Of a stretch of DNA of 64,000 nucleotides, positions 39,029 through 45,191 are shown in pieces. Each line of letters starts with the position of its first letter. Positions within the stretch are counted from its first letter, which is position 1. Source of the DNA: Thermoplasmata archaeon (lineage in GTDB: Archaea; Thermoplasmatota; Thermoplasmata; Thermoplasmatales; Thermoplasmataceae); the NCBI GenBank assembly GCA_021806295.1, contig JAJZXS010000044.1, forward strand, positions 1-64,000, read 5' to 3'. The position numbers were made by a program, and so were the translations under genes. The notes below the pieces were generated by a model. It saw only the letters and a list, made by a program, of their open reading frames with translations, had not been told where the DNA came from and searched no databases.

Positions 39029-39062
39029 CAAAATTTTTTTAACATGTCTACATTGCTGTTAT

Positions 39063-39363
39063 ACTGGACTAGACCGGGGAGCCAGGCCCTCCCTGTGACC
39101 CGTGCCGAAATGCGGGGGCGACTGCCTGGCAAGGGCAACCAGGCCTTTGGCAGTCTCCATGAAATCGTAGAGTCTCTGTCCTTTTGGATCGGGGGTTTGC
39201 ATGTATAACTTCAAAGGAAGATATGCATGCAATTTACCGGGAAAACCCGCCAGGCCCGGAAGGGAACAACGGTATCCTGGACCATCGATGCTGAGAGGGT
39301 GCGGGGAGGAGAGGAAGTGGAGGACGCTACCAAAACACCTGGACTGAACCAGGCGTGTCCAGT
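39063..39363 (+). ncRNA. ffs: Signal recognition particle RNA (7S RNA)
   Basis: Helix 8 core GCCAGGCCCGGAAGGGAACAACGGTATCCTGG; ends pair ACTGGAC...GTCCAGT; intergenic and GC-rich. Confidence 0.93.
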
Positions 39364-39375
39364 ATTACGATTATT

Positions 39376-40643: not shown

Positions 40644-41246
40644 ATGCCCGCAAACTTAATAGAAATTTTATTAACTGCTGAAAAACCATCATGTGGGGTC
40701 TTAAAGAAACTCTCTACGGTTAATGTTAGAGCCAGAATATTCCAGATAAATCCGGGAATAGAATATACAAACCACCTCATGGGAATTGAAAATTACTCTG
40801 AAAACAGAGAGATTCTCAGGGATGATAACATTACGGTGTATAAAAATCAGAGAGATAAAACGTGGATGGAAACAAAAAGCTGTGAAATATGCAAGGCATC
40901 AGCCGCCTCGGGCGCCATGATAATATCAGTAAAAATTTTTGAGAACCAGAAAGTGCAGTATAAAATTCTTTTAAAAAATAAGAATTCATTAAAGAATTTA
41001 CAGGAAAACATTGAGGGAATAAAATATAGATATTATGAGTCAGATAGCCGCTTACCGGGAGAATTAACCCTGAGGCAAAAGGAAATATTATACATGGCAT
41101 ATTCAAAGGGCTATTTTGATTTCAATAGAAGAATAGACCTTGATGGGATAGCACAGGAAATGGGAATAAGTAAAAAATCCGTACAGGCCACATTGAGGCG
41201 TGGAATAGAAAAGATAATAGAGGAATATATTTTCAATAATCTATAA
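40644..41246 (+). CDS. HTH_10 (bacterio-opsin activator-like) helix-turn-helix protein
   Basis: C-terminal LTLRQKEILYMAYSKGYFDFNRRIDLDGIAQEMGISKKSVQATLRRGIEKII. Confidence 0.87.
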   Translation: MPANLIEILLTAEKPSCGVLKKLSTVNVRARIFQINPGIEYTNHLMGIENYSENREILRDDNITVYKNQRDKTWMETKSCEICKASAASGAMIISVKIFENQKVQYKILLKNKNSLKNLQENIEGIKYRYYESDSRLPGELTLRQKEILYMAYSKGYFDFNRRIDLDGIAQEMGISKKSVQATLRRGIEKIIEEYIFNNL

Positions 41247-41299: not shown

Positions 41300-41485
41300 A
41301 TGGTAGAAATGGGATACGAATTTAAATGCAAGGATATAGGAATGGATTGTGGTTTTGACGTAAAGGCTGACTCTGTGGATGAGTTAATACCGGTAATCCA
41401 GGTACATGCAAAGAATGCACATGGAATAAACGAGATAACTCCAGAACTTTTTGAGAAGGTTAAATCCGCAATAAAGGAATATTAA
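41300..41485 (+). CDS. DUF1059 small protein
   Basis: YEFKCKDIGMDCGFDVKADSVDELIPVIQVHAKNAHGINEITPELFEKVKSAI. Confidence 0.85.
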   Translation: MVEMGYEFKCKDIGMDCGFDVKADSVDELIPVIQVHAKNAHGINEITPELFEKVKSAIKEY

Positions 41486-41639
41486 ATAATTTTTTTATTT
41501 TTTTAACTGCTATATATTGAATTAAATAATATATAATGGTTAAACAAAAGTTTTTGAATTTTATGTGTATTGTTTCAATAATAACCTTTAGCATGGATAG
41601 ATTATCATAATTATCTATTTTAGTCAGGGGACTAGATCT

Positions 41640-41845
41640 GTGCGGTACCAGTTAACCTTCAGCGGGAATGCTTCCTGGGAGTCTATGAAGAATGATTACC
41701 TGTACCAGATCATATAATTAGTGAAGATTCTGGTGATTGCATGACGTATCTGCATGGTATGCGTAATATTTCAGGAACGGTATACCAGAATAACAATTCA
41801 TTACAAGGATTAATTCAAACTATTTTTAATGAATCTATCTCTTAA
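41640..41845 (+). pseudogene. Decayed coding fragment of unknown origin
   Basis: RYQLTFSGNASWESMKND in one frame, then PVPDHIISEDSGDCMTYLHGMRNISGTVYQNNNSLQGLIQTIFNESIS* in another. Confidence 0.3.
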
Positions 41846-41903
41846 ATTGAGCCTGTATGATATAAATTTGCTTATATTTAACAAAATAATTCTTAATATT
41901 CAT

Positions 41904-41987
41904 GCAGAGGACGGGATTTGAACCCGCGAACTCCTTCGAGACTAGACCCTTAATCTAGCGCCTTTGTCCTAACTCGGTAACCTCTGC
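41904..41987 (-). tRNA. tRNA-Leu with anticodon reading AAG (unusual; possibly degenerate)
   Basis: RC sequence GCAGAGGTTACCGAGTTAGGACAAAGGCGCTAGATTAAGGGTCTAGTCTCGAAGGAGTTCGCGGGTTCAAATCCCGTCCTCTGC; acceptor 7/7 bp, anticodon arm CTAGA-TTAAGGG-TCTAG, long variable arm. Confidence 0.88.
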
Positions 41988-42119
41988 TGTTGTGTATCAT
42001 TTTTACATATATAACTATTATTAACAGTAGACTTATGCCATGACGTATTTATTTAGGTATTAACCAAACTGACATCTAGAGGAATATAAATAAAACGAAA
42101 TTTTATAAATGTCTGTGTT

Positions 42120-42257
42120 ATGAAAATGCTGCCTATGAAGGCAATCAGGACTGGGCATATTCATTTAAAGGGCACAGAAAAGATTTCTAGCGTGTACCAT
42201 ATATCAAAGAATCCATTCGATCAGTTCAATCACATTATAACAAGCCAGTTTTTTTAA
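42120..42257 (+). pseudogene. Truncated N-terminal fragment resembling TnpB (IS200/IS605 OrfB)
   Basis: MKMLPMKAIRTGHIHLKGTEKISSVYHISKNPFDQFNHIITSQFF* resembles TnpB N-termini (RT..I.LK....L...SK..YNQ.NYI); no intact body follows. Confidence 0.5.
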
Positions 42258-42518
42258 TAAGAAGAAAATATTCTCTTGCAAAACTCTAGCATAGGAATTC
42301 TAAAACCCACAGAATAATGGATTTAGAGATGGAAACAGGATTAGGGGATATCAATTATCCATGAAGTTTAAGCATCAAAGAGATAATAACTTCTAAAGGT
42401 GTTTATTAGCATGGTTGACGGAAATTATAACTTGAGTTTCATCAAATGGTGGCCTTAAAAGCCCATTTTATTCCAATATACCTTAGAATTTATTAGACAG
42501 TAAACAATTAGATTCTAA

Positions 42519-45191
42519 ATGATAAATAAAGATACGCTGGTAATATCAAATCCAGGTACCGGGAAAACAACCAGAATAGCAGATGAGGTAGTTAATCTCA
42601 TAGAAGATGGAGTATCTCCCGATGATATACTTTGCATTACTTTCACCAATAATGCAGTGGCACAGCTTCAGAATACAATAGATAAAAAGTTGATTGAGAG
42701 AAAAATTACTATGCACACCGCCTATGATATAAATATATACACTTTCCATGCACTGGCATTCAATCATCTACCGGGTGTTAAATCAGAAAATTCTATAATT
42801 TCATACAACCTTGCCAGATACCTGATCTATAAAAAACTGAGGGAGTTGAAAGCCTTCAATTACGGGCGGGAGTATGTGATAAACGAAATAGTTCCCAAGC
42901 TTGAAAACGCAATAAGGTATATCAAAAGTTTCGGCATTGCGCCGGATGATATTGATAATCTGAAAGAAAAAATATCAGAAAAAATAAGGGAAAAGTTCTC
43001 TACAGGCAGGGTAAAAAATATCAATGCTGATGAAGAACAGTATCTATTTGATTATTTCTACCAGGCGTTCAAATACTATGAGGAAAAAAAGGGAAACCTT
43101 GACTTCAACGACTTGCTGTTTGAGTTTCATAAATTTGAAGGAAAAAAACGTTATAAATATGTGTTTGTGGATGAACTGCAGGACATAAACGATATAGAAG
43201 CCGCTATTGCTAAGTCCTCTGGAAATATAAAATTCATGGTCGGTGACAGGAAGCAATCCATCTTTGGTTTCCAGGGTGGAGCATTATCTGTATTCAATTC
43301 ATTGCTGTCTGATGAAAGCGTGGCAAAGGAAAGTATGAAAACAAATTATAGAAGCACCGATACAATCCTGGAATATTCCAAGAATTATTATATGAAATTT
43401 GAAAAAGATGCAGAGGAACTGGAAAATTTCAAGGGAGTGCGTGATAAAGGCGATAAGGTTACAATAATACAGTCGGAATCGCCGGAAGAATCTGTTATAA
43501 ATAGAATATCGGAAATAGCGAATCATGATGGCACAACCGGAATAATAGCAAGGACAAACGCACAGATAGACATGATATCCACACTGCTGGATAAATATAA
43601 TATAGAGTATTCCAGTGATTCAAACGTTCATTCTGTAAACGAGGCAAAAAAGGATATTACCTTATTTCTCCGTGGAATTTTGTATGATAGGGATGATGAT
43701 ATTATTTCTGCCATAGTAACACCATTCTCCGGATTATCCCTGAAGGAGGCCTTTGAAATATCAGAATCCCTCCAGAATGATGGCAGTACAATAGATAGAT
43801 TTGATAGGGGAAGTCCATTTTTTTCTATGAGAAACACCGAACTGTCAAAAGAGGGAATAAAAAAGCTCTTCGATATGAGAATATTGCCGGCTGCAGCATC
43901 CATAAGCCCGGAGTACTTCTTAACGGCATCAGCTGTTAAATCTTCCATTGATGAGTTTTTTCAGGGCGAAAAGGAATATACAAGAGAAAACTTCTTCGAT
44001 TTCCTTGATCTGTCATACTCAGAAAATGGCGTTAAAGCCGGCAAGTCAAAATTAGTTCTCACTACTGTGCATAAAGCCAAGGGCAGAGAATTTGACCGGG
44101 TCATATATTTACCAAAAAAGCCGAGGGTATCAGACGCATATATAGACCTCATAGTTTCATCCATAATAGAAACAGTAAAAGGCATAGATGTGGACGATGA
44201 ATTAAAAAATGAGAGCATACGAATTGATTTTGTCGCATTTACCAGGGCAAGGGAAAAATTATGGATATGCGCATCCACCAGGGAGGCAACAAGCTATCTC
44301 ATACCTGAATATTCAGATCTGGTTATAGATGAGGCTTTCAGTGAAAAATCTCCGGTACCTGATAAAACAAAATATGATGAGGCATACTTTCAGTTTGTCT
44401 CCGGAAACTATGCAGCTTCAGAGAAAATTATTAAGCAGGAAGATGGCTGGCTCAGGGAAAAAATATATGAATTCTTCAGGTCAAAAAATGTCCTATCCTA
44501 CTCTCTTATAAGCCTGGACAACCCTTACTGGCTCCTAAAAAATAATATTTTAAAATTGAATGAAAAAACAGAGGCCCTTTATTATGGGTTAAATGCCCAT
44601 GAAATGGCGGAATCACTTTACAAGGGAGAAATCCAGGAGGAAATATTATCCATGAAGGACAGAAAAGTGCTTGACAATATAGGGGCTGTCATAAATCAGA
44701 TAAAATCCGCATATGGCATGGAGCAGATCGAATCTGAGGTTTCTGTCATAGCAAGGGTAAACCAGATGTTCCCGGAGTTCTCCGATGAAGCTGATTCAAT
44801 AATGTTTTATGGGAAACTTGATGCAGTATTCGGGAACGGAAAGAAGTATGTAATACTTGATTATAAAACAGATAAGACAACTGAAAGATCGTCGCATCAC
44901 AGGGTACAGCTGCTTGCGTACCGTATACTTTATGCTATAAAGAACAGCATAGATGTGAATAATATTGATATTGCCATAGGTTACATCAGCCTGAGGGGAA
45001 AAATAAATACCGGAGAAAATTCTAATGGAATAGATTTCAAGCAGCCCGATAAAAGGTCTGTGGAACAGTTAAAAAAGTATATCAGCAGATTCCTGAAATA
45101 TAAACGCAATCCTGATGAATTTATTTCAGATTATTTAAATTATCCCTGCGACGATACACTTTACAGGAGGCTGGGGGACCTGCTTAAATAA
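42519..45191 (+). CDS. UvrD/Rep-family helicase fused to C-terminal PD-(D/E)XK nuclease (AddA-like)
   Basis: Walker A SNPGTGKTTRI; VFVDELQDINDIEAAI; GDRKQSIFGFQGG; NYRSTDTIL; VALTRARE-like VAFTRAREKLW; nuclease core YVILDYKTDKT and VQLLAYRI. Confidence 0.93.
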   Translation: MINKDTLVISNPGTGKTTRIADEVVNLIEDGVSPDDILCITFTNNAVAQLQNTIDKKLIERKITMHTAYDINIYTFHALAFNHLPGVKSENSIISYNLARYLIYKKLRELKAFNYGREYVINEIVPKLENAIRYIKSFGIAPDDIDNLKEKISEKIREKFSTGRVKNINADEEQYLFDYFYQAFKYYEEKKGNLDFNDLLFEFHKFEGKKRYKYVFVDELQDINDIEAAIAKSSGNIKFMVGDRKQSIFGFQGGALSVFNSLLSDESVAKESMKTNYRSTDTILEYSKNYYMKFEKDAEELENFKGVRDKGDKVTIIQSESPEESVINRISEIANHDGTTGIIARTNAQIDMISTLLDKYNIEYSSDSNVHSVNEAKKDITLFLRGILYDRDDDIISAIVTPFSGLSLKEAFEISESLQNDGSTIDRFDRGSPFFSMRNTELSKEGIKKLFDMRILPAAASISPEYFLTASAVKSSIDEFFQGEKEYTRENFFDFLDLSYSENGVKAGKSKLVLTTVHKAKGREFDRVIYLPKKPRVSDAYIDLIVSSIIETVKGIDVDDELKNESIRIDFVAFTRAREKLWICASTREATSYLIPEYSDLVIDEAFSEKSPVPDKTKYDEAYFQFVSGNYAASEKIIKQEDGWLREKIYEFFRSKNVLSYSLISLDNPYWLLKNNILKLNEKTEALYYGLNAHEMAESLYKGEIQEEILSMKDRKVLDNIGAVINQIKSAYGMEQIESEVSVIARVNQMFPEFSDEADSIMFYGKLDAVFGNGKKYVILDYKTDKTTERSSHHRVQLLAYRILYAIKNSIDVNNIDIAIGYISLRGKINTGENSNGIDFKQPDKRSVEQLKKYISRFLKYKRNPDEFISDYLNYPCDDTLYRRLGDLLK

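Follow-up and report, generated by a model that had tools for sequence, protein, structure and literature searches.

A tRNA-Leu(AAG) in place of tRNA-Leu(GAG): a probable CUU-preferring decoder in two related archaeal genera

Does an archaeal leucine tRNA gene with adenosine at position 34 (A34) encode a working decoder, or is it a decaying extra copy? The question was raised by a tRNA-Leu with the anticodon AAG in the window, i.e., the whole 64,000-nucleotide stretch of Thermoplasmata archaeon DNA analyzed here, whose genus appears to be of the Ferroplasma type. Published accounts describe archaea as making no use of A34 tRNAs, and A34 without modification as exceedingly rare (PMC11066159, PMC8007984); a review later than Wu 2018 describes all ANN anticodons as missing in archaea (PMC8007984). 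As a general rule, the first-pass annotation was right that archaea lack A34, yet an exception had already been published: Wu 2018 lists a tRNA-Leu-AAG in F. acidarmanus fer1, with loss of GAG and a G-to-A origin at position 34, as "species-specific" (PMC6000648).

Both ARAGORN and Rfam called the gene (Table 1; the Rfam cut-off for an RF00005 match is 29 bits), in agreement with the minus-strand tRNA-Leu and the anticodon reported in the first-pass annotation. The location given there was right, but the start was one base off, the interval 41904-41987 omitting the discriminator A73 (41903). The gene combines a cloverleaf, a long variable arm and A73, as expected for tRNA-Leu, and is fully paired in the acceptor (7/7), anticodon (5/5) and T (5/5) stems. 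The earlier description of the acceptor stem, the anticodon stem and the variable arm was accurate, as was that of the A10-C25 mismatch, which the pair table contains as the sole mismatch among the 20 stem pairs counted. There is no intron, and CCA is not gene-encoded. An anticodon loop shifted by one base, which would read UAA, was dropped on inspection, as it would break the anticodon stem. Alignment of the upstream flanks of 12 genomes revealed a TTAATATAT-like sequence that is kept at the same distance from the tRNA, while the sequence farther upstream diverges; we regard this TATA-like element as the putative promoter. Just 3′ of the gene (41870-41902), a loose motif, T..NTATAARRGTT, is kept in most genomes (same place in L042-L052) and is perhaps a candidate 3′ processing or termination signal.

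Table 1. Positions of the tRNA-Leu(AAG) gene, its parts and neighbouring features in the window.
Feature	Position	Strand	Basis
tRNA-Leu(AAG), 85 nt including discriminator A73	41903..41987	-	ARAGORN; Rfam RF00005, 39.7 bits
Anticodon A34-A35-G36, loop UUAAGGG, G37	41949..41951	-	ARAGORN
A10, opposite C25	41978	-	Pair table; G10-C25 in outgroup G027, A10-U25 in G077
C25, opposite A10	41960	-	Pair table
TATA-like element (putative promoter), ~20-27 bases 5′ of tRNA	42007..42014	-	Upstream flanks aligned, 12 genomes
TnpB-type transposon 3′-end remnant, separate from tRNA	41582..41781	+	Repeats in same genome 71-79% identical
UvrD/Rep-type helicase with PD-(D/E)XK domain	42519..45191	+	Pfam PF00580, PF13361, PF12705
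DUF1059 protein	41300..41485	+	Pfam PF06348
HTH_10 (bat-type) regulator	40644..41246	+	Pfam PF04967

The tRNA sits in a gap of about 1 kb flanked by the DUF1059 gene and the UvrD-type helicase gene, and the interval between them (41486-42518) holds zero ORFs of at least 60 aa. The gene-poor patch described earlier is thus real, and so is the transposase-like fragment, which represents the 3′ end of a TnpB-type element. A repeat of this remnant forms the end of a 405-aa ORF in L321 of the same genome, and the corresponding ORF in L320 ends in a TnpB-like zinc finger; the name TnpB was assigned by eye, not by profile. Other TnpB-type copies in the window genome lie on contigs C18, C24, C37, C38 and C45, those on C37 and C38 being about 700 bases or less from the contig end. 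The remnant had no match at the corresponding site in the nearest relative, G006, and has no visible bearing on the tRNA. The same helicase adjoins tRNA-Leu(AAG) in G006, too, and its closest records come from Thermoplasmata MAGs and a Ferroplasmaceae archaeon. A plasmid search using the tRNA flank gave no match. We also noted, as a second repeat within the gap, a short dispersed sequence (42356-42431), copies of which (69-91% identical) occur in many congeneric genomes, and an archaeal SRP RNA gene (39062-39364, plus strand, Rfam 176.8 bits). The latter overlaps the called start of an HD-domain ORF (39355), whose true start probably lies further in.

The window genome (1.47 Mb, 49 contigs, 96% complete) contains 40 Rfam-detected tRNAs, and its leucine tRNAs were typed as AAG, UAG, CAG, UAA and CAA. 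A check for tRNA-Leu(GAG) elsewhere in the genome, as proposed in the first-pass annotation, found none among these 40; because a few further tRNAs are likewise missing from this set, this absence alone is weak evidence. In the complete single-contig congener G004, 44 tRNAs were detected by Rfam and all of them typed; the leucine anticodons were again AAG, UAG, CAG, UAA and CAA, and GAG was not among them. Since GAG is absent from both the window genome and the complete congener, we conclude that AAG replaces GAG. The combination considered by Wu 2018, AAG present with GAG absent, is found in the window genome. CUU/CUC have no dedicated anticodon there other than the one with A34, which bears out the earlier suggestion of an "unusual decoder". 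Also not detected in G004 were tRNA-Trp and tRNA-Pro(GGG), both of which are probably hidden by introns.

Comparison across genomes revealed that the 85 bases are 100% identical in 10/10 genomes of the window's genus (g1), the complete genome G009 included; three of the nine other congeneric genomes are single-contig. The copy in G026, a member of the sister genus g18, is 96% identical to that of the window. A pattern for the AAG arm matched all ten g1 genomes and 3/3 genomes of g18, none of the remaining 104 genomes of the order, and no genus beyond these two among 390 genomes drawn from the phylum; the pattern is strict, and variant forms could escape it. In G026, G078 and G077, A34 is kept and one pair of the anticodon stem has changed on both sides, from T-A to C-G; G077 exhibits a further paired change in the variable arm as well as an A-U pair at 10-25. 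In a tree built from 3464 columns of 20 ribosomal-cluster proteins, G026 stands beside g1 and G027 outside, with support of 1.0. This next branch carries a GAG anticodon and G10-C25, and for this reason a single G34-to-A34 change on the common stem of the two genera explains the pattern. Pair 10-25 passed from G-C to A-C, and to A-U in G077.

The nature of the mismatch itself was informative. With 20 stem pairs counted per tRNA, A-C accounted for 11 of the 12 mismatched stem pairs in the window genome and for 10 of 11 in G004. The tRNAs of the window genome thus have hardly any other stem mismatch, and A10-C25 is ordinary for these organisms and not a mark of decay, with the caveat that A-C is also the natural two-transition step between G-C and A-U. 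Bernhardt and Tate (2012) reported ten C-A mismatches and one T-T mismatch in the tRNA stems of F. acidarmanus, quoted an internal pH of 4.9 +/- 0.5 and proposed protonated C-A+ pairs in the acidic cytoplasm (PMC3372908). The tally in G004, ten C-A and one T-T, is alike, and A10-C25 is a pair of the same kind. That proposal concerns stems, not codon-anticodon wobble; its extension to A34-C3, made below, is our own. Individual cases shared by the window genome and G004 are C11-A24 in tRNA-Ser(GGA) and in tRNA-Ser(CGA), and A-C at 27-43 in one Arg tRNA and four Gln/Glu tRNAs.

These comparisons bear directly on the suspicion that the gene is a decaying copy or pseudogene. It is true that 39.7 bits is the lowest score among the tRNAs detected in the window genome, and that the A-C mismatch and the nearby transposon remnant fit such a fate. 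No second copy was found, however: the gene is the sole CUY tRNA, its sequence does not vary among the ten congeneric genomes, and A34 persists in the sister genus together with two-sided stem changes. The tRNA is kept in relatives with its stems maintained, as a functional tRNA would be, and neither drift of the sequence nor a functional copy at another site, the two marks of a tRNA pseudogene, was observed. Moreover, the TATA-like putative promoter is conserved, and the corresponding site in G006 showed no TnpB fragment. We consider decay very improbable, and the pattern of conservation argues for a working gene. An error of sequencing or assembly, which the 49-contig state of the window genome might invite, can practically be discounted: the same base occurs in thirteen genomes of two genera, single-contig ones included, and in the published F. 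acidarmanus (PMC6000648). A read error is ruled out by the independent genomes with the same 85 bases.

Could A34 be edited? The TadA-like deaminase that the first-pass annotation had proposed to look for was searched with PF00383 and PF14437, and neither a TadA nor an ADAT2/3 homologue was found in the A34 genomes. Each of them contained one CDA-fold protein, except for G003, whose assembly has 4% contamination and which yielded two. The protein of the window genome (G000) scored 117 bits to ComEB vs 40 bits to TadA, below both cut-offs, and the translated CDA-fold proteins of G000, G004 and G026 are of the dCMP-deaminase type. A CDA-fold protein is also present in nearly all G34 relatives. 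The ADAR-type domain PF02137 gave no match, but the controls were equally silent and this blank carries no weight.

Codon usage was compared between A34 genomes and G34 relatives, using 64-100 kb of bulk sequence per genome and simple ATG-started ORFs. Genome-wide avoidance of CUC was not seen: bulk CUC/(CUC+CUU) ranged from 0.10 to 0.31 in A34 genomes and overlapped with the 0.14-0.30 of G34 relatives. We then contrasted bulk with a set of ribosomal-protein, EF and thermosome genes, for which high expression is assumed, and corrected the shift of CUC relative to CUU by the median of the UUY, AUY and GUY boxes. The resulting log2 values were negative in the A34 genomes (G000, -0.77; G004, -1.58; G006, -0.36; G009, -1.91; G005, -0.55; G026, -0.63) and positive in the G34 relatives (G027, +0.15; G020, +0.53; G011, +0.49; G032, +0.16). 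Presumed highly expressed genes thus favour CUU over CUC in 6/6 A34 genomes, and the reverse is observed in 4/4 G34 relatives, of which G027, G020 and G011 were seen to carry GAG and G032 is assumed to do so from the missing AAG pattern. Bootstrap intervals exclude zero in three of the six A34 genomes (G000, G004, G009); with G004 and G009 being nearly the same strain and G000 and G006 a close pair, the six amount to about four lineages. Since the A34 genomes form one clade, the shift counts as one evolutionary event. Its direction fits a decoder preferring U at the third position. In A34 genomes, CUC still makes up 2-12% of the leucine codons of the presumed highly expressed set and, because it is not rare in most of these genomes, it must be read adequately.

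Based on the codon usage and the missing TadA, we propose a U-preferring, unmodified A34. We assign a probability of roughly 0.6 to the reading that a working tRNA-Leu replaced the ancestral GAG by a G34-to-A34 change and that its A34, probably undeaminated, reads CUU, and CUC less well. The tRNA is the only one dedicated to CUU/CUC; A34 would most likely not be deaminated, with CUU read through a standard A-U pair and CUC, at lower efficiency, through A-C wobble. The acidic cytoplasm could stabilise the A34-C wobble through protonation (A+-C), tRNA-Leu(UAG) may serve as a backup for CUC, and A10-C25 would be one of many tolerated A-C stem pairs in these organisms. A related situation was created in E. 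coli, where a tRNA with a Methanocaldococcus body, AAG and G37 was free of detectable inosine and read U3:C3 at 87:13 (PMC11066159); residue 37 of the window tRNA is likewise G. Picrophilus has a similarly low reported internal pH, near 4.6 (PMC3372908), yet keeps GAG (PMC6000648), and acidity alone thus does not force A34. It could make A34 possible without being its cause.

Two other accounts differ in how CUC is decoded. An enzyme unrelated to TadA, or the dCMP-deaminase-like protein in a second role, might convert A34 to inosine; IAG would then cover CUU, CUC and CUA, and an inosine formed at position 10 could pair with C25. This would accommodate the CUC codons that persist in highly expressed genes and have to be read, and A-to-I conversion would undo both G-to-A changes, at positions 10 and 34. 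Inosine is indeed present in tRNA of all domains, although position 34 is excepted in archaea (review, PMC8007984). Against this stand the failure to find TadA and the sole CDA-fold protein, which is ComEB-like and shared with G34 relatives. In Lactobacillales, moreover, I34 raised both CUU and CUC (PMC13249217), whereas the highly expressed genes here prefer CUU to CUC. G077 keeps A34 but has A10-U25, so that position 10 needs no editing there, which also weakens the idea of one deaminase repairing both adenosines. Inosine formation is therefore an unlikely explanation in our view. It also seems rather unlikely that A34 reads CUU only and leaves CUC to a relaxed U34 wobble of tRNA-Leu(UAG). 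That tRNA was found in the window genome, G004 and G026, and highly expressed genes make relatively less use of CUC; but CUC stays common in the bulk genes of most A34 genomes, and in E. coli cells an AAG tRNA without detectable inosine did decode some CUC (PMC11066159).

The tRNA of F. acidarmanus described by Wu 2018 is the nearest known case, likely from the same genus, with the same anticodon, absence of GAG and a G34-to-A origin. It was regarded as species-specific, whereas here it is fixed in the sister genus as well as in all ten congeneric genomes; CUC decoding, a codon shift and conservation with paired stem changes do not appear in the accessible part of that paper (PMC6000648). A bacterial counterpart is the tRNA-Leu(IAG) of Streptococcaceae and Lactobacillaceae, where an AAG gene replaces GAG in whole families and is linked to a shift in leucine codons, as in the Ferroplasma type (PMC13249217). 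In those bacteria A34 becomes inosine and the usage of CUU and CUC rises together, with decoding speeds equalised, while the GAG tRNA read CUC about ten times faster (PMC13249217); in the archaeal clade the searches gave no TadA, and the preference is for CUU over CUC. Mycoplasmas resemble the archaeal case in wobble decoding without an A34 deaminase, but this concerns tRNA-Arg in bacteria that have lost TadA, as opposed to tRNA-Leu in archaea in which TadA was not found (PMC3711424). Known before, in the literature as far as it was accessible, was a tRNA-Leu(AAG) in one species; its fixation across a clade and the reversal of the CUU/CUC preference were not met there. The two genera thus constitute a natural clade of at least 13 genomes, some of them complete, with A34 in the dedicated CUY decoder and no TadA found, and they offer a test of unmodified A34 in cells, of the archaeal capacity for I34, and of the effect of cytoplasmic pH on wobble. 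More tentatively, the clade may use unmodified A34 as a regular wobble base for a two-codon set, which the acidic cytoplasm would make feasible, with A+-C pairs forming at the wobble position as well as in tRNA stems. If this were true, intracellular pH would become part of the decoding rule.
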